Shown one piece after another: positions 3,726 through 52,153 of a DNA stretch of 64,000 bases; position 1 is the stretch's first letter; the number at the start of each line of letters is the position of its first letter. The DNA comes from Jiangella aurantiaca (lineage in GTDB: Bacteria > Actinomycetota > Actinomycetes > Jiangellales > Jiangellaceae): positions 1 to 64,000 of the forward strand of contig NZ_SMLB01000014.1 of the NCBI RefSeq assembly GCF_004349105.1, written 5' to 3'. The notes below the pieces were generated by a model, which saw nothing but the letters and a program-made list of their open reading frames with translations, was not told where the DNA came from and did no database searches. A program made the translations under genes and the position numbers.

Positions 3726-3764
3726 TCATCGGGACTGACGTCAGACCTCGCGGTCGGCAACCAC
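3726..3764. repeat. Dispersed ~40-bp repeat (TGACGTCA / GACC-N4-GGTC type)
   Basis: The copy contains the palindrome TGACGTCA followed by GACCTCGCGGTC and CGGCAACCAC. It lies downstream of the MFS gene and abuts the stop codon of the following minus-strand gene. Very similar sequences lie at 40762-40846 (two copies) and 51783-51823. A shorter related sequence is at 18461 and 52018. Confidence 0.75.
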
Positions 3765-17424: not shown

Positions 17425-18423
17425 TCAGCCCACCCCGCCGTAGGAGTGCAGGCCGTCGAAGAGGATGTTCACGCCGAAGTAGCTGAACAGCACCGTCGCG
17501 TACCCGATGAGCGCGACCACGGACGCCTTGGAGCCCTTCCAGCCGGCCGTCGCGCGGGCGTGCAGGTAGGCCGCGTAGGCCAGCCAGGTGATGAGCGCCC
17601 AGACCTCCTTGGGGTCCCAGCCCCAGTACCGCCCCCACGACACCTCGGCCCAGATGGCGCCGAGGATGAGCGGGCCGAAGGTCCAGATCGGGAACGCGAT
17701 GGCGGTGAGCCGGTACGCGAGCCGGTCCAGCGCGCCGGAGTCGGGCAGCGACGCGCCGAAGCCGCTCGTGCGTCCGCGGTCGGCGGCCCGCTCGGACACG
17801 ATCTGCAGGGCGCTGACCACCGCGCCGACGGTGAAGAGGCCGAACGCGAGCACCGCGCAGCCGACGTGGACGACCAGCCAGTACGACTGCAGCGCCGGCT
17901 GCAGCGGGCCGGGCGGCACGTAGAGGAACGTCGCGGCGAGGCCGACGGTGACGAAGATCAGCAGGACGGCCCAGACGGCGACGACGCGGCCGACGACGGT
18001 GCGGGCGAGGGCGAGGAAGACGATCGAGGCGACGAGGGCTCCGGTGATGGAGAACTCGTACATGTTCGCCCACGGCGCCCGCTCGGTGCCGAGGCCACGC
18101 ATGACGACGCCGACCGCGAGCACCAGCGTGGCCAGGCCGAACAGTCCGCGGCCGATACCGCCGAGTCGATCGGCGCGCTCCTGGAGCTCGGCGTCGCCAG
18201 GACCCGCCGGCGCCTCCGCCGGGACATCCGCGGACCCCGGCGCATCCGCCGCCGGCGACGTCACGCCGACCAGCTCGCGCTCCGGGACGGTGGTCGTCAC
18301 GTTGCGGCGACGGCGGCTGTGGATGCCGGCCTCGGCGCAGTACGCCAGCCAGGCCGCCAGGTAGCCGAGGACGGCCACGACGACGACGTAGCGGCTCCAC
18401 TCGGCGACGGCATCGAGGTCCAT
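17425..18423 (-). CDS. ccsB: Cytochrome c biogenesis protein CcsB/ResC (haem handling)
   Basis: A 332-residue integral membrane protein of system II cytochrome c maturation. It partners with ResB to export haem and ligate it to apocytochromes outside the membrane. The tryptophan-rich WWD signature is present as SWGRYWGWDPKEVWALITW, and conserved histidines lie in WLVVHVGCAVLAFG and in the last periplasmic loop. A long Pro/Ala/Asp loop (about residues 45-85) between helices 1 and 2 is variable in this family. The ATG overlaps the resB stop by 1 bp. It is the final gene of the hemL operon. Confidence 0.92.
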   Translation of the reverse strand: MDLDAVAEWSRYVVVVAVLGYLAAWLAYCAEAGIHSRRRRNVTTTVPERELVGVTSPAADAPGSADVPAEAPAGPGDAELQERADRLGGIGRGLFGLATLVLAVGVVMRGLGTERAPWANMYEFSITGALVASIVFLALARTVVGRVVAVWAVLLIFVTVGLAATFLYVPPGPLQPALQSYWLVVHVGCAVLAFGLFTVGAVVSALQIVSERAADRGRTSGFGASLPDSGALDRLAYRLTAIAFPIWTFGPLILGAIWAEVSWGRYWGWDPKEVWALITWLAYAAYLHARATAGWKGSKASVVALIGYATVLFSYFGVNILFDGLHSYGGVG

Positions 18424-20087
18424 CAGTCCTCGCCTCTTTCCTTTTCCTTGTTGGACTCGCCGCCACCTGGGACCTCGCGGTCGGCATCGGCCGTTTCTTC
18501 CGCGCCGCCAAGGCGCAGCGACAGCCCGTCAGTGACGGCACCGATCTCGTCGATGAGGCGGTCGCCCGACGAGCCCTCGGCCCGGTGCAGCCCCGCGACC
18601 TCGACCACGGTACGCCCCTCCGGCCCGGTGCTCGCACGCACCCAGGCCCGGCGCCGGCGCACGTACAGCGAGCCCATGAGACCGACCACCGCGACGACGG
18701 CTCCGACGAGCGCCAGCTCGCGACCGGAGTTGCGGCCGATCTGCAGGTTCACCCAGGTCACGTAGCCGTCGAAGGTGATGTAGCGGCCGTCGGGCAGCTG
18801 GACGGTGTCGCCGACGACGAGCTGCTTGCGGTACGGCTCGCCGTTCTCCTGGTACTGCTCCATGTCGGTGGTGTCCAGCCGGTACACCGACTGCGGCTGG
18901 CCGTCGTCGAGGCCGAGGTCGCCGTGCCAGGCGGTCAGGAACACCGCGGGGTTGCGCACGCCCGGGAAGATCGACCGCGGGCCGTTCTCGTCCAGCACGG
19001 CGGTCGGCAGGAAGCTGCCCTGGATGCCGATGTCGTCGCCGAACTCCGGCGGCACCTCGACCTTGACCACGCCGGTGGACGTGAAGCTGGAGTCCTCGGG
19101 CAGGAACGGCACCGGCCCCTCGGCGAGGATCGTCTCGCCGTCGGCGGCTCGGACGGTGAACGCGGGCGCGTAGCCGGGGTTGATGATGTGCACCGATGTG
19201 CCGTCGATGTTCAGCGGCTCGTTGACCCGGATCGTGTGCGTCTCGGGTGCCGCGCCCGGCTCACGCACCACCGTCACCGTCGCCTCGTACTCGGCGGGCT
19301 GGCCGATCTGGTTGCCGGCCTCGACGAACTCCATCCGGAACTCGTCGACGTCCATCGAGAACGGCGGCAGGTCGGCGGTGTCGAACAGCGCGCCGGCGGA
19401 CAGGCTGTCGAACTGGATGACCTGGTTGGAAAAGCCCGCGCCCTCCGGCACGAGCACCGTCGCCCGGTAGCTGAACAGCCCGCCGAGCGCCACCGCCAGC
19501 AGCACCACGACGACCGACAGGTGGAACAGCAGGTTGCCGGTCTCGCGCAGGTGCCCGATCTCGGCGGCGACGGAGTCCTCCTCGCCCTCGGCGGGACGGC
19601 GCAGCCGGTAGCGCCGGGACCGCAGCTCGGCCCGGGCGACCGCCAGCACCTCTTCCGGCGTGGCGTCGACCTCGACCTTCCGGTACGCCGGCATCCGCGT
19701 CAGGCGGCGCGGCGCCTTCGGCGGCTGCGCGCGGACCGCCTTCCAGTGCTGCCACATGCGCGGCAGGATGCAGCCGACCAGCGACACCATGAGCGCGATG
19801 TAGATGGCCGCGAACCAGGGCGCGGAGTAGACGTCGAACAGGCCGAGGCGGTCGTACCACTCCGACAGCGTGGGGTTGCGGGCGCGGAAGTCGCGGACGT
19901 TGAGCGGGTTGACGTCGCTCTGCGGGATGACCGAGCCGGGAATGGCGGCGACGGCGAGCAGGAACAGCAGGATCAGCGCCACCCGCATCGAGGTGAGCTG
20001 CCGCCACGCCCACCGCGCCAGCTCCAGGCCGTTCAGCGGGGGCGGCCGGTTGTCCACCGGCGGGCGCGTGTCCATCCCCGTCGTCAT
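18423..20087 (-). CDS. resB: Cytochrome c biogenesis protein ResB/Ccs1
   Basis: A 554-residue ResB-family protein. Three N-terminal transmembrane helices (starting MRVALILLFLLAVAAIPGS) are followed by a fourth near residue 455, with a large extracytoplasmic beta-rich domain between. It forms the haem-transfer complex with CcsB. The last ~80 residues are cytoplasmic and poorly conserved. They end in a charged tail (KEKERGED) containing the DNA sequence related to the dispersed 40-bp repeat (18461-18485), so part of the tail may be repeat-derived. It lies 13 bp downstream of ccdA. Confidence 0.92.
   Translation of the reverse strand: MTTGMDTRPPVDNRPPPLNGLELARWAWRQLTSMRVALILLFLLAVAAIPGSVIPQSDVNPLNVRDFRARNPTLSEWYDRLGLFDVYSAPWFAAIYIALMVSLVGCILPRMWQHWKAVRAQPPKAPRRLTRMPAYRKVEVDATPEEVLAVARAELRSRRYRLRRPAEGEEDSVAAEIGHLRETGNLLFHLSVVVVLLAVALGGLFSYRATVLVPEGAGFSNQVIQFDSLSAGALFDTADLPPFSMDVDEFRMEFVEAGNQIGQPAEYEATVTVVREPGAAPETHTIRVNEPLNIDGTSVHIINPGYAPAFTVRAADGETILAEGPVPFLPEDSSFTSTGVVKVEVPPEFGDDIGIQGSFLPTAVLDENGPRSIFPGVRNPAVFLTAWHGDLGLDDGQPQSVYRLDTTDMEQYQENGEPYRKQLVVGDTVQLPDGRYITFDGYVTWVNLQIGRNSGRELALVGAVVAVVGLMGSLYVRRRRAWVRASTGPEGRTVVEVAGLHRAEGSSGDRLIDEIGAVTDGLSLRLGGAEETADADREVPGGGESNKEKERGED
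18461..18485. repeat. Short dispersed repeat inside the 3' end of resB
   Basis: The 25 bases CGCCACCTGGGACCTCGCGG plus TCGGC are identical to 52018-52042, upstream of disA. The GACCTCGCGGTCGGC half also matches the longer repeats at 3726 and 40762. Confidence 0.6.
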
Positions 20088-23415: not shown

Positions 23416-23552
23416 CGCGTCATTCTCGCAAGCGGCCGGAGCAGCCCGAACGCCGGCCTAGCCAAAGGCCGACCACGGGGTCCCAAGGGGCGGCGAGGCC
23501 CACAAGGGAAAGGCGGAACAGGGCGTCCGGGCCGCTCCCGCCGACAACCGCC

Positions 23553-24178: not shown

Positions 24179-24305
24179 CCTGGCTCCCCAGATCGTGGTG
24201 TCCTGCGGGGCCTGCGGTCCCCTCGTGGAGCGGGAGACTACGCCCGTCCGCGCCCGGACGGAACCCTGATCAGACGGCCATATGCGACGTGAACTCCGGT
24301 CGCGT

Positions 24306-24377
24306 GTTGATCTTGGAGTTGTTCGGCCATCGTGGGGCGAAATGTCCCGTAGATGGCCGAACAACTCCAAGATCAAC
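24306..24377. repeat. Long hairpin, GATC-tip family, copy A2
   Basis: Arms of 25 bp, GTTGATCTTGGAGTTGTTCG through CCAT and its complement, match perfectly. The apex holds the nested GGGGCGAAATGTCCC, nearly the same as the apex of the copy at 47782. It lies between the catalase stop and the pseudogene promoter. Confidence 0.85.
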
Positions 24378-24454
24378 GCTGGGTGGGGCAGGCGCACCGT
24401 CCCCGTCCGGCCCCATGACGGGGCGCGGACGAGGGCGGCGTCGGGCTCGCGCGA

Positions 24455-39836: not shown

Positions 39837-40858
39837 TTGGAACTCGCCACCGATCGCAGGAGGAAACCCAGGTTGGCCGGCCGCTCCGCCAGGCGGCGGA
39901 CCAGGTAGGCGTACCACTCCGGACCATAGGGGACGTAGACGCGGACCCGCTCGCCGGCCCGGACCAGCCGGCGCTGCTCGCGCGAGCGGAGGCCGTAGAG
40001 CATCTGGTACTCGTAGCTGCCCTGCTCGCGACGGTGCCGGGCGGCCAGCGACCCGGCGATCTCGACCAGCCGGGCGTCGTGGGTGGCGATCATCGGGTAG
40101 CCGTCGCCGGCGAACAGGACCTTCATGCAGCGCACGTAGGAGCGGTCGACGTCGCCGCGGTCGCGGAAGGCGACGCTCTCGGGCTCGTCGTAGGCGCCCT
40201 TGCACAGCCGCACCCGGGAGCCCTCGTAAGCGAGGTCGCGGCAGTCGGCCTCCGTGCGCTTGAGCTGGGCCTGCAGCACCGCGCCGACGCTGGGGAAGTC
40301 GGCGCGCAGGTCGCGCAGCACGTCCAGCGTGGCGTCGGTGGTGGTGTGGTTCTCCATGTCCAGCGTCACCGTGGTGCCGGCGTCGGCGGCGGCCTGGCAG
40401 ATCTGCTGGGCGTTCTCGAGCGCGATGGCGGTGCCGTCGGCCGGCAGCGCCTGCCCGACGGCCGACAGCTTCACCGACACCTCGACGTCAGGAGTGAGCT
40501 CGGCCTTGTGCAGCGCCTCGAGCAACGTGACGTACCGCTGCGCGATGGTGGTCGCCTGGGCGCGGTCGCGGGTGTCCTCGCCGAGGTGGTCGATGGTGAC
40601 GGCGAGCCCCTCGCCGGTCAGCTCGCCGGCCACCCGCACGGCGTCGCTCTGCTCGGTCCCGGCGACGTACCGGGCGACGACGTTGCGCGTCAGCGGGAGG
40701 CGCTCGACGGTGTGCCGCAGCCGCTCGCTCCGCGACGCGCCCAGCAAGGCCGAACGCAGCATCATCGGCGCTGTCGCCAGACCTCGCGGTCGGCTGCCAC
40801 TGCTCACCGGGGCTGACGCCAGACCCTGCGGTCGGCTGCCACCCTTCCTTCCTGCCAA
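39833..40858 (-). CDS. Proline dehydrogenase with repeat-derived N-terminal extension
   Basis: A monofunctional flavin-dependent proline dehydrogenase (TIM barrel). Motifs are RVRLCKGAYDEPESVAFR, QMLYGLRSREQRR and YVPYGPEWYAYLVRRLAERP. The family normally starts near MMLRSALLGASRSERLR (ATG 40765), but no ribosome-binding site lies there. A TTG at 40858 has AAGGAGAGGG 7 bp upstream and adds 31 residues made from two tandem copies of the dispersed repeat (GSRPQGLASAPV, GSRPRGLATAPM). I infer the repeat entered between the ribosome-binding site and the old start. Length is 341 residues from TTG, 310 from ATG. Confidence 0.88.
   Translation of the reverse strand: MAGRKGGSRPQGLASAPVSSGSRPRGLATAPMMLRSALLGASRSERLRHTVERLPLTRNVVARYVAGTEQSDAVRVAGELTGEGLAVTIDHLGEDTRDRAQATTIAQRYVTLLEALHKAELTPDVEVSVKLSAVGQALPADGTAIALENAQQICQAAADAGTTVTLDMENHTTTDATLDVLRDLRADFPSVGAVLQAQLKRTEADCRDLAYEGSRVRLCKGAYDEPESVAFRDRGDVDRSYVRCMKVLFAGDGYPMIATHDARLVEIAGSLAARHRREQGSYEYQMLYGLRSREQRRLVRAGERVRVYVPYGPEWYAYLVRRLAERPANLGFLLRSVASSK
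40762..40846. repeat. Two tandem copies of the dispersed ~40-bp repeat
   Basis: Copy one (40762-40800) has CAGACCTCGCGGTCGGCTGC and copy two (40804-40846) has CAGACCCTGCGGTCGGCTGC. Both keep GACC-N4-GGTC with different centres (TCGC, CCTGC-shifted). They lie within the translated N-terminus of proline dehydrogenase. Confidence 0.8.
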
Positions 40859-45999: not shown

Positions 46000-46959
46000 C
46001 TAACCCGATTCGTCCGATTCGCCGAAACCGGCCCCCTCGATCTGGTCCAACCGGCGCAGGATCACGCCCTCGCGCAGCGCCCACGGGCAGATGTCGACCT
46101 CGTCGACCTCGAACAGGTCGATGGCGGCGTCGGCGACGACGGCGCCGGCCAGCAGCTGCCCTGCTCGTCCGGCGGAGACGCCGGGCAGCTTGGCCCGCTC
46201 CGCGGCCGTCATGGACGCCAGCTTCTTCACGAGATCCTGCACATCTTCCCTGCTCAAAGTGCGTCGCACGTAAGGGCCGTCGCCGGACGGAGCGGCACCG
46301 GCCACCCGGGCCAGCGAGCGGAACGTCTTGCTCGACGCGACCGCGCGGTCGGCGGTGCCGTACCGGTTGACGTCGCCGATGATCGACGCGATCTCGGCCC
46401 GCACGTGCCGTCGCAGCGCCCGCAGCTCGTCCTTGTCCGGCGGGTCGCCGGTGAACCAGTCGCGAGTCAGCCGGGCGGCGCCCAGCGGCAGCGACACCGC
46501 GATGTCAGGGTCCTCGTCGCCGCCGGCGGCCAGCTCCAGCGAGCCGCCGCCGATGTCGAAGCTGAGCAGCCGCCCCGCCGACCAGCCGTACCAGCGCCGC
46601 ACCGCCAGGAAGGTCAGCCGCGCCTCGTCCTCGCCGGAGAGGATCTGCAGGTCGACGCCGGCCTCGTCGCGCACGCGGTCGAGGACGGCGGTGCCGTTGA
46701 CGGCCTCGCGCAGCGCCGACGTGGCGAACGCGAGCATGGACGTGGCGCCCTTGTCCTCGGCCGCCTGGACCGCCTCGCGGCAGCTCTTCAGCAGTCGCTC
46801 GGCGCCCTGCTTGCTGATGGAGCCGGAGTCGTCGAGCAGCTCGACCAGCCGGAGATCGGTCTTCTGCTTGTACGCCGGCAGTGGACGCGCACCCAGGTGG
46901 GCGTCGACGAGCAACAGATGGACGGTGTTGGAACCGACGTCGAGCACACCCATGCGCAC
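46000..46959 (-). CDS. Ppx/GppA family exopolyphosphatase
   Basis: A 319-residue actin-like ATPase-fold phosphatase acting on polyphosphate or pppGpp. Phosphate-binding loops are [32 protein letters not shown] and [16 protein letters not shown]. It is the short form without the C-terminal HD domain. The GTG at 46959 follows a TATCGT box by 7 bp. The divergent gene starts only 21 bp away. Confidence 0.9.
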
Positions 46960-47733: not shown

Positions 47734-47781
47734 CCCCGATTCGTCCTCCGCGACGGCGACGGCGCCAGCAATCCAGCCGAG

Positions 47782-47853
47782 GTTGATCTTGGAGAAAGTG
47801 CGGAGTTACTGGGCGAAATGCCCGATTGATTCCGCGCTTTCTCCAAGATCAAC
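47782..47853. repeat. Long hairpin, GATC-tip family, copy A3
   Basis: Arms GTTGATCTTGGAGAAAGTGC plus GGA pair with one G-T difference. The apex contains the nested GGGCGAAATGCCC. It lies between the convergent ends of the Cys-rich gene and the LPDTG gene. Confidence 0.85.
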
Positions 47854-47958
47854 TTTGGTGAGATGGGGCGACCGGTTCGGAACGCCGCCTGGCAGCGAGA
47901 GGCCGCCGGACCCGGACCTCACGTCCGGGCCGGCGGCCTCTGCAGGGGAGTTGCGTGC

Positions 47959-49461
47959 TTACTGCTGGACCTGGCGGCGGCTCACCGCGAACGCGGCGGC
48001 CGCACCGGCGAGCAGCAGGCCGGCGCCGACGAATAGCAGCTGGCTCGACGCACCGGTGTCAGGCAGCTCCTCACCGTCGCCGCTGCCGGAGCCGTCCTCG
48101 GCACCGCCGGCGGCGCCGTCCTCCGAGCCGTCATCCGACCCGTCGGTCTCGGTGCCGTCGACCTCGGTGCCGTCGACCTCGGTGCCGTCGGTCTCGGTGC
48201 CGTCGGTCTCGGTGCCGTCGGTCTCGGTGCCGTCGACCTCGGTGCCGTCGACCTCGGTGCCGTCGACCTCGGTGCCGTCGACCTCGGTGCCGTCGACCTC
48301 GGTGCCGTCCACCTCGGTCTCCGTGCCGTCCACCTCGACCTCGGTGCCGTCCACCTCGACCTCAGTGCCGTCCACCTCGACCTCGGTGCCGTCCACCTCG
48401 ACCTCGGTGCCGTCCACCTCGGTCTCCGTGCCGTCCACCTCGGTCTCCGTGCCGTCCACCTCGGTCTCGGCCCCGGCGCGCTGGTCGCAGGCCTGGTAGT
48501 AGGCCTCCTGGCTTCCGATGACCGCGTTGAGCGGACCCTGCCACAGCCACGGCGCGCCACACGCGTCGTTGAGGATGTCGAGGCTGCCACCCTCGGTCGA
48601 GACGAGGCTGCTCAGCAGGTCCGTCGACGGCGCGTCCGCACCGCTGCAGGCGGTGTAGTGGGCCGACTGCTCGCCCAGCACCGTGTTGATCGGGCCCTGC
48701 CACAGCCACGGCGCGGCGCAGGCGTTGTTGAGCAGGTTGGCGCCGTCGCCGGTCAGCGTGCCGTCGTTGTTGCAGGCGGCGTAGTGCGCGGACTGACCGT
48801 CGTTGAACCCGTTGACCGGGCCCTGCCACAGCCAGGGCAGCGCGCACACGTTGTTGCCGACGTTGACGCCGTCGCCGTAGGTCGTGCCGTCGCTGTTGCA
48901 GGCGACGTACGTGGCCTCCTGGTCGGCGTTGAACACGTTCGCCGGACCCTGCCAGAGCCACGGGAGGGCGCAGGCACCGTTGAGCACGTTGATGCCGTCG
49001 CCGTAGGTGGTCTCTTCGGTGTTGCAGACCACGTAGTAGGCGGCCTGGTCCTCGACAGCGCCGTTGGCCGGGCCCTGCCAGAGCCAGGGCGCCGCGCAGG
49101 CGTTGTTGAGGACGTTGATCCCGTCGCCGTACGAGTCGGCACCGTTGTTCAGGACGTTGATGCCGTCACCGATCGCGATGCCGGTATTGCCGTTGCAGGC
49201 CTCGTAATAGGCTTCCTGGCCGCCGACGAGGATGTTGAACGGGCCCTGCCACAGCCAGGGCAGTGCGCACAGGCTGTTGCCGACCTCGATGTCACCGAGA
49301 CCGAGGGTGTCCAGCAGGCCGTCGGCCTCCTCGACGCTGGTGATCTCGTTGGGGAGCTCAACCCCCTTCCCCTCCTCGGCCGTGGCCGCCGGCACGCTCA
49401 AGGCGAAACAGGCGGCGAGCGCAGCGCCGGCCACAACGGCGCCACGCAGCACTGTCTTCAA
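47959..49461 (-). CDS. LPDTG-anchored surface protein with six C-x23-C PWLWQGP modules
   Basis: A 500-residue cell-wall protein. Signal peptide 1-28 ([18 protein letters not shown]...). Six modules have cysteine pairs 65/89, 122/146, 164/188, 206/230, 248/272 and 301/325, each with 23 intervening residues and the core PWLWQGP; four in a row have an exact 42-residue pitch. Residues ~332-430 are a Thr-Glu-Val-Asp-Gly stalk, then a Ser/Gly/Asp linker. LPDTG (466-470) is followed by a hydrophobic helix and RRQVQQ, a sortase signal. It pairs with the short protein at 43349. Start TTG 49461 gives the same leader and 7-bp ribosome-site spacing as that protein; GTG 49464 is the alternative. Confidence 0.87.
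48140..48470. repeat. Tandem DNA repeat encoding the acidic stalk
   Basis: Units of 12-18 bp built from ACCTCGGTGCCGTC are repeated more than twenty times. They encode EVDGTE / ETDGTE blocks of the LPDTG protein. Copy number is likely to vary between strains by slippage, changing stalk length in frame. Confidence 0.9.
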
Positions 49462-50504: not shown

Positions 50505-51941
50505 ATGGCGAAGGCGAAGACGACGGCCCCGGTGTTCCGGTGCTCCGAGTGCAGCTGGTCCACGGCCAAGTGGGTCGGCCGGTGCGGCGAGTGCCAGGCG
50601 TGGGGCACGGTCGAGCAGGCCGGCGCGGCCAAGGCCGGCGTCACGGCGGCCGGCCCGGTCACCGAGGCGGCCCGGCCGATCGGCTCGGTCGCCATCGAGG
50701 CGGCGCGGTCCCGGCCCACCGGCGTCGGAGAGTTCGACCGCGCGTTGGGCGGCGGGCTGGTGCAGGGAGCGGTCATCCTGCTGGCCGGCGAGCCGGGCGT
50801 CGGCAAGTCGACCCTCCTGCTCGACGTCACCGCGCGGTGGGCGCACGAGGCCGGCCGGGCGCTGTACGTCACCGGCGAGGAGTCCGCGGCCCAGGTGCGG
50901 CTGCGGGCCGAGCGCACCGGCGCAGTCGCCGACCACCTCTACCTCGCCGCCGAGACCGACCTGTCCGCCGTCCTCGGCCACGTCGACGAGGTCCGGCCGT
51001 CGCTGCTGGTGCTCGACTCCGTGCAGACGGTGTCCAGCCCGGCCGTCGACGGCGCAGCCGGCGGCGTCACGCAGGTCCGCGAGGTGGCCGCGTCGCTCAT
51101 CCGGGTCGCCAAGGATCGCGGCATCGCCACCATCCTCGTCGGTCACGTCACGAAGGACGGCAGCATCGCCGGACCGCGAGTCCTCGAGCACCTGGTCGAC
51201 GTCGTGCTGCACTTCGAGGGCGACCGCCACTCCCGGCTGCGGCTGGTGCGGACGGTGAAGAACCGGTTCGGCCCGGCCGACGAGGTCGGCTGCTTCGACC
51301 TCACCGACACCGGCATCCGTTCGCTCGCCGACCCCACCGGCCTGTTCCTGTCCCGGCACGCCACCCCGGTGCCGGGCACCTGCATCACGGTGACGCTCGA
51401 GGGCCGGCGCCCGCTGCTCGGCGAGGTGCAGGCGCTCGTGGCCACGTCGGCGCTGGCCACGCCGCGGCGGGCGAACAGCGGGCTCGACTCCTCGCGGGTA
51501 GCCATGGTGCTGGCGGTGCTGGAACGCCGCGGCCAGGTCCGGCTCAGCAACAGCGACGTCTACACGTCGACCGTCGGCGGCGCGAAGCTGTCCGAGCCGT
51601 CCACAGACCTCGCGCTGCTGCTGGCCGTGGCCAGCGCGGCGTCCGGCTCGCCGCTGCCGGCCGGGCTTACCGCGCTCGGAGAGGTCGGGCTGGCCGGTGA
51701 GATCCGCCGGGTCTCCGGCCTGAGCCGGCGGCTGGCCGAGGCCGAACGCATGGGGTTCACGACGGCGCTGGTGCCGTCGGAATCATCGGGGACTGACGTC
51801 AGACCCAGCGGTCGGCTACCACCTCTGCCCGGCCCGGTGCCCGGCGGCATCCGCGTCATCGAGGTGGCCGATGTCGGGCAGGCGCTGGCCGCGTCCGGCC
51901 CCAATGCCGGGCTGGCCGCGGATTCGCCCCAGCACACCTGA
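50505..51941 (+). CDS. radA: DNA repair protein RadA with repeat-derived insertion
   Basis: A 478-residue RecA-like ATPase that promotes branch migration in recombination. The N-terminal zinc finger is [20 protein letters not shown]. Walker A is GEPGVGKST, the RadA-specific KNRFG lies in [12 protein letters not shown], and a C-terminal Lon-protease-like domain follows ([17 protein letters not shown]). In that domain, after TTALVPSE, about 18 extra residues ([17 protein letters not shown]) come from a copy of the dispersed 40-bp repeat (51783-51823). The ATG at 50505 follows a TACGGT box by 7 bp. disA follows, as is common. Confidence 0.94.
51783..51823. repeat. Dispersed ~40-bp repeat inside radA
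   Basis: TCATCGGGGACTGACGTCAG followed by ACCCAGCGGTCGGCTACCAC matches the copy at 3726 over almost its full length. It is read in frame within RadA. Confidence 0.85.
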
Positions 51942-52017
51942 ATCGTTGCGTGGTATTGACGTCATCGTCGCCGCGCAGCGGCACATCACACGCTCCGCTT
52001 TCCCATGTGGGGCTCCT

Positions 52018-52042
52018 CGCCACCTGGGACCTCGCGGTCGGC
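52018..52042. repeat. Short dispersed repeat upstream of disA
   Basis: Identical over 25 bases to 18461-18485 (CGCCACCTGGGACCTCGCGG plus TCGGC) and related to the longer repeat. It lies in the radA-disA spacer, where it may affect expression. Confidence 0.6.
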
Positions 52043-52153
52043 GCCTGGCTAGACTGTTTTCTCCAGTGTCGTCTGCCGTCCCTCGCCGGGCCGGCGTCGC
52101 GCGACCGTACACTGTTCATCACGAGAAGCCGTCCGGGTCACGACAGGGGTCAC

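Follow-up and report, generated by a model that had tools for sequence, protein, structure and literature searches.

Two families of short dispersed repeats with empty orthologous sites in Jiangella, including a copy lying in frame within radA

The radA gene of Jiangella aurantiaca (50505–51941, forward strand; a gene call matching TIGR00416 with 491.6 bits) contains a stretch of about 40 bp that recurs elsewhere on the same contig, raising the question of whether a very small mobile element has entered a repair gene in frame, as the original prediction proposed, and, if so, to which class of element it belongs. The window analysed here is the 64,000-bp stretch at positions 1–64000 of contig C8, in a genome of 6,620,775 bp assembled into 102 contigs (G000, the window genome). 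The predicted repeat was found at 51783–51823 (forward strand) in radA, at 3726–3764 and, twice over, at 40762–40800 and 40804–40842. A genome-wide search, suggested together with the prediction, returned many further copies: GACNNNGCGGTCGGCNNCCAC, with at most one mismatch, gave 56 matches, versus 7 with a reversed-pattern control, and the core GACC-NN-GCGGTCGGC (pattern GACCNNGCGGTCGGC) gave 128 matches, versus 9 with the reversed control. The repeat is, thus, far more abundant than expected by chance.

Comparison of 85 distinct core contexts resolved two families. Family A is about 40 bp long and has sharp ends (TCATCGGGGACTGACGTCAGACCTCGCGGTCGGCTGCCAC), whereas family B is about 56–60 bp long, with the consensus CTggTTCCCTTTCCCTTGTGGGACTCGCCGCCGCCTGGGACCTCGCGGTCGGCcTtGGGC, and is often directly followed by CTAG. 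The two families have in common a 3′ core of 15–16 bp and, further upstream, a GGGACT motif, separated from the core by a spacer of 7 bases in A and 13 bases in B. What was initially described, at 18461 and 52018, as a shorter form of the radA repeat really belongs to the longer family B and shares only the 3′ core and GGGACT with A; another B copy, on the reverse strand at 23459–23515, had been absent from the original list. The four loop bases had been reported to vary. This is true of the first two, which read TC in 20 of the 32 copies of A and in 91 of the 106 copies of B (totals that, like those for placement, CTAG, shuffles and strand below, retain two chance core matches, L053 and L078), but not of the last two, which are GC and were fixed as such in the initial search patterns. 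In A, CGTCA immediately precedes the GACC-NNGC-GGTC hairpin and CCAC stands at the end of the unit, with C, C and A at positions +17, +18 and +19 in 26, 26 and 28 of 31 copies, respectively (L053 and L078 excluded). The CGTC motif, the third position of which is C in 3 of these 31 copies, is internal to the A unit and is missing from the B consensus. Family A also contains a palindrome, TGACGTCA. Its reverse strand starts with GTGG, located 5 nt from the 4-bp stem, and the sole GTGG of B precedes the shared stem by 17 bases. Pairs of copies of the same family no more than 300 bp apart at loci of the window genome were direct in four cases and inverted in one, and direct tandem pairs of A or B, with gaps of a few bases, were found at L043, L413, G000:C91:110280/110325 and G007:C4:211174/211219.

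The other A copies of the window are all on the forward strand: one between convergent genes (3726–3764), the reverse-strand member of which has its stop codon about 2 bp away, and a direct tandem pair, the first member of which (40762–40800) lies at the start codon of a reverse-strand gene and the second of which (40804–40842) follows as a 42-bp unit. The B copies lie inside the reverse-strand gene 18423–20087 (18437–18491, forward strand), in the interval between radA and the next gene (51998–52051, forward strand) and at 23459–23515. The window also carries three copies (24–102, 24301–24379 and 47777–47858) of a 79-bp hairpin-like repeat (GTTGATCTTGGAG...CTCCAAGATCAAC), and, within the coding sequence of a reverse-strand gene (47959–49434), there are tandem arrays built of 15- and 21-bp units (48080–48502) and, as far as about 49289, of 126-bp units.

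Sites were aligned with those of congeners wherever the region was retrievable, for six sites in the window, which account for its seven copies with the tandem pair taken as a single site, and six on contig C47 of the same genome. At all 12 of these sites, at least one congener had an empty orthologue. The site within radA (51783) and the neighbouring site at 52018 were both empty in 11 of 11 congeners. The sites at 23459 (a 59-bp insert; G008 was not among the congeners retrieved), C47:147905 and C47:206001 were empty in 6 of 6, the last of these insertions lying between the arms of a perfect inverted repeat, in its loop, and those at C47:130283 and 3744 were empty in 5 of 5, G001 having other extra sequence at 3744. 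At these seven sites, the window genome was the sole filled one among the congeners retrieved. Site 18471 was empty in six of seven congeners (G007 filled), C47:134523 and C47:218134 were each empty in five of six (G011 filled) and C47:216382 was empty in four of six (G008 filled, with a remnant in G002). The site at 40762 was empty in four of seven (G004, G005, G009 and G010), with a single A copy in G007, G008 and G001, where the window genome has two. In the other direction, 28 of 33 congener copies with a window-genome orthologue in hand were shared and five were empty in the window genome; this sharing rate is inflated because the window-genome loci were picked mostly for holding copies, G006 L343 and G011 L356, counted among the 28, have gap lengths that do not fit, and L326 and L327 were assigned to their genomes by inference. 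The five reciprocal copies belong to G008 and G011.

Insert lengths were mostly 42–46 bp for A (39 bp relative to G005 at 216382) and 56–60 bp for B, reaching 63 bp relative to some congeners; the wider ranges at 147905 (57–71 bp) and 3744 (33–58 bp, from BLAST spans) arise because the flanks differ. Small differences in flank sequence were found at junctions. No target duplication common to the copies was seen at the aligned filled and empty sites, and no terminal inverted repeats were seen in A or B; CTAG stands on either side of some B copies (C47:130283), and the flanks are without a match in most copies. Families A and B have, therefore, reached new positions in the chromosome after the species diverged, and the comparison of filled and empty orthologous sites bears out the very small mobile element originally proposed.

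The searches for RadA and for the repeats covered 12 genomes (G000–G011) of this genus of soil bacteria. Counts obtained with a sequence model, which scored no more than 150 candidates per genome, were, for family B, at least 139 in G000, 56 in G011, 31 in G008, 29 in G002, 21 in G009, 16 in G001, 14 in each of G006 and G007, 1 in each of G003, G004 and G005, and 0 in G010. For family A, the model gave 43 in G000, 23 in G008, 15 in G011, 14 in G009, 12 in G007, 7 in G001, 6 in G002 and none in G003, G004, G005, G006 and G010. The 60 genomes searched included 48 from other genera; each of these held the exact core 0–4 times, with neither A nor B around it in contexts that could be placed. No exact A or B pattern was found in viral contigs, and a plasmid search with one B copy gave no match; spread by phages or plasmids was rejected on these results. 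The closest relative of the window genome was G002 (support 90), in a tree built from a 78-kb alignment with much missing data (about 4 kb each for G003 and G006). At C47:134523 and 218134, B occupies the same place, in the same orientation, in the window genome and G011, yet both sites are empty in G002; for this sharing with G011 but not G002, a single gain is insufficient without loss, repeated insertion or recombination. Two more dispersed repeat families, of about 134 bp (L253:17760-17893) and 85 bp (L254:11274-11357), have dozens of matches in G002 and G011 and are, by eye, unrelated to A and B. No published description of A or B was found in the literature, searched by title and the opening of the abstract.

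Both families lie mostly between genes. With a simple gene finder and a coding fraction of 88%, 110 of the 140 window-genome copies read in context were intergenic, 3 were at a locus edge and 27 overlapped a predicted gene, these totals including some in-gene calls that are wrong start extensions (e.g. L064, L035 and L086). A gene end lay within 10 bp of 62 of the 110 intergenic copies; when copies were scattered at random over the same gaps, 45 were expected, and no more than 53 were reached in 300 trials. Gene boundaries within 12 bp of a copy were 57 stops and 15 starts for B, and 8 stops and 2 starts for A. The tetranucleotide CTAG is rare in the genome (0.26 per kb) and, away from the elements, 69 of 82 occurrences are intergenic or at stop codons. 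Of 106 B copies, 31 have it at +21 or +22 relative to the core, versus about 0.06 expected from the genome-wide density, the intergenic density of CTAG being higher. The empty state is known for 12 B sites, and a native CTAG stands at the junction in 3 of them: 52018, where the 3′-junction CTAG is also present in the empty sites, C47:130283 and L390/L255. The empty site of the CTAG-flanked B copy at 23459 lacks CTAG, and the empty sites of 218134 read CTCAG. Fisher and binomial figures for CTAG, which likewise take the genome-wide density, cover 11 sites and are weakened by the later inclusion of 23459. B favours CTAG neighbourhoods, and the four letters may belong to the target or to the element.

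The insertion in radA adds 45 bp, or 15 residues net, after TTALVP; the extra residues first noticed are, thus, real, but number 15 rather than the approximately 18 described after TTALVPSE. The alignment of RadA with close relatives, proposed as a check in the original prediction, revealed an empty site in 11 of 11 congeners, all of which lack the 15 residues. Among 14 further RadA proteins aligned, 13 cover the loop concerned and none has these residues, a few having some extra residues of their own; the loop is already variable among actinobacteria. Six insertions into coding sequence have an aligned empty orthologue. Five are read through in frame: those in radA, in the gene 18423–20087 (+57 bp, or 19 codons, close to the C-terminus), in the gene at C47:134523 (57–63 bp relative to different congeners, near the C-terminus, in the window genome and G011) and in two G008 genes (+60 bp each) that are uninterrupted in the window genome. 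The sixth, an A copy in G008, lies where the orthologue of gene 46000–46959 ends; it brings a new stop, and the last residues are replaced. At 218134, the stop codon of the neighbouring gene is changed from TGA to TAG by the element and the end of the protein is unchanged. In-frame entry is, thus, tolerated, as predicted, in five of six cases, but the suggested preference for it is not supported, as 110 of 140 copies are intergenic despite 88% of the DNA being coding, and in-gene copies lie in several frames and on both strands. Given that the resulting peptides come from different frames and strands, what spreads is the DNA and not a peptide. The in-frame pattern is consistent with survivorship, being as expected if only harmless insertions persist. 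A hydrophobic peptide encoded in the core phase of B (LVGLAAAWDLAVG) was judged a coincidence, because the copies are mostly intergenic.

The palindromic arms had been proposed to be under selection, and they are indeed conserved, but pairing within the GACC/GGTC stem was no better than in column shuffles, with no covariation, and the consensus fold was no better than that of shuffled sequence. Rfam gave no match for eight loci (24 kb) at E values up to 1, and a hairpin or RNA function was rejected on these three grounds. The Y1 transposase domain PF01797 (IS200/RAYT) was found in none of the 12 genomes of the genus, in a search that was positive in 5 of 14 known control genomes; the IS91-type Y2 domain PF04986 was likewise found in 0 of 12, but its control genomes were also silent. 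The 504 predicted proteins near copies included six clusters of three or more, none transposase-like by eye, and an autonomous parent element beside the copies was rejected on this basis for the window genome. The strand of B relative to neighbouring genes was the same in 47 cases and opposite in 61 (p 0.21), or 17 versus 31 in gaps between tandem genes (p 0.06). Along G008, the strand of B showed no regional trend (p 0.86, 12 of 31 copies used), and A showed a weak regional bias (p 0.03, 23 copies, origin not located). These strand results do not establish the lagging-strand signature of HUH transposition.

With no consistent target duplication, terminal inverted repeats, Y1 transposase, recurrent transposase-like family beside the copies, covariation or established strand bias, a non-autonomous element moved in trans is favoured, and A and B are probably REP-like miniature elements of this kind, mobilised through their shared module. 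This module, GGGACT, a spacer and GACC-NNGC-GGTC-GGC, would be recognised by a single trans-acting enzyme, so that two otherwise different sequences could be moved by the same machine. The enzyme would act on DNA and join the element at weakly specified sites, often beside CTAG in the case of B; as CTAG stands mostly outside coding sequence or at stops, this may help to account for the placement at gene ends. The layout resembles, by analogy, the single-strand HUH transposition of REP/RAYT and IS200/IS605 systems, with a small hairpin-capable unit, no target duplication and CT-containing junctions, but the enzyme would not be a recognisable Y1 transposase, and selection would then clear harmful insertions. 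In favour of this reading are the excess over the reversed controls, the sharp bounds of both families, the empty and reciprocal sites, the copy numbers that differ by lineage, the CTAG beside B and the five in-frame coding insertions; the missing mobilising gene, covariation and strand signature, the discordant CTAG at 23459 and 218134, the one early stop and the patchy sharing with G011 speak against it. The more specific proposal, that one enzyme outside the Y1 HUH group recognises the 15-bp module and GGGACT, making these families a living example of the enzyme-less CGTC-type REP class, is offered tentatively.

Rather less probable is that A and B are ordinary REPs, left as relics by a RAYT (Y1 HUH transposase) that has been lost or persists in unsampled strains. 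Their size (REPs are 21–65 nt), gene-end placement, the TAG stops provided by element ends and the copies of REPs known in repair genes would fit, in the descriptions drawn on here (PMC6006769, PMC3733652), as would the GTGG with which the reverse strand of A begins, a head of the REP type (PMC2817692), and the cutting of CT by Y1 REP enzymes (PMC8266576). However, Y1_Tnp is found in 0 of 12 genomes although, at seven sites, no congener retrieved shares the copy of the window genome, the shared stem has 4 bp against the 7–20 paired bases of the REP definition (PMC6006769), and the only GTGG of B is distant from the stem. Degenerate MITEs of a cut-and-paste (DDE) insertion sequence are improbable: the paired CTAGs around some B copies, as at C47:130283, do look like a 4-bp duplication, but matching flanks are missing in most copies, there are no terminal inverted repeats and no transposase-like cluster beside the copies, and units of 40–60 bp fall below the range of 70–300 bp stated for MITEs (PMC3733652). 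We give equally little credence to spread without any enzyme, by template switching or by copying during repair at sites prone to hairpins, to which the insertion in the inverted-repeat loop at C47:206001, the direct tandem pairs with gaps of 0–4 bp and the small flank differences at junctions might be attributed, because many copies have defined ends and almost the same insert length, which indicates a recognised unit. Immobile regulator binding sites kept by selection are highly implausible, despite the operator-type palindrome TGACGTCA in A, since whole blocks of 40–60 bp, often at gene 3′ ends or in genes, are cleanly present or absent between sister species, and the empty sites contradict this explanation.

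These small repeats can be set against several known systems. As for MITEs, in the accounts consulted (PMC10969869, PMC3733652), A and B are non-autonomous, dispersed and gene-adjacent, but they are smaller and have neither terminal inverted repeats nor a consistent target duplication. They resemble GT[AG]G REPs (PMC2817692, PMC6006769, PMC8266576) in size, high copy number and intergenic bias, in the REP-type GTGG that heads the reverse strand of A and in the CT-containing junctions of B. A REP is defined by GT[AG]G located 0–2 nt from a stem of 7–20 paired bases (PMC6006769), and, unlike such REPs and REPtrons, A and B have too short a stem, no Y1 enzyme in any of the 12 genomes and no transposase-like cluster beside the copies. 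Rickettsia RPEs, described as 100–150 bp long and often located in genes (PMC3767692, PMC10969869), provide a parallel for in-frame entry into unrelated genes with the addition of a peptide, as seen for RPE-1 and others; A and B differ in their length of 40–60 bp and in having 27 of 140 window-genome copies overlapping predicted genes, this comparison being one of descriptions.

How REP-like repeats without a transposase spread was given as an open question in 2013 (PMC3733652). Young insertions with exact empty sites, B counts from 0 to at least 139 between species and a shared module make the enzyme searchable by gene-content comparison, and the high- and near-zero-copy species of a single genus provide a route to it. 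The radA case provides a clean natural insertion of 15 residues in a repair ATPase. REPs tagged with CGTC, including RPE-4 and RPE-6 of Rickettsia conorii and dRS3 of Neisseria, are small and dispersed, occurring close to the 3′ ends of genes as well as within repair genes, with no dedicated transposase known; they have an unpaired CGTC at one end, a stem of 8–9 bp with A-T pairs first, a loop of 4–5 bases and a CCA tail, and mostly form head-to-head dimers (Di Nocera et al., 2013; PMC3733652). Actinobacteria are not among the phyla given for them in the sections of that article drawn on here. A and B differ from these REPs in several respects: the CGTC of A is internal, with about 15 conserved bases before it, and is absent from the B consensus; the GACC/GGTC stem has 4 bp rather than 8–9, without A-T first pairs; and pairs of copies are mostly direct tandems rather than head-to-head. 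Like CGTC REPs, both families are small and dispersed, lie near gene 3′ ends and inside a repair gene, and have no associated transposase gene, and A has a four-base NNGC loop and a CCA tail. The CGTC of A adjoins its hairpin, as in these REPs, but within the unit and not at one end of it. The nearest known class is, on the best reading, that of the CGTC-REPs and Rickettsia RPEs.
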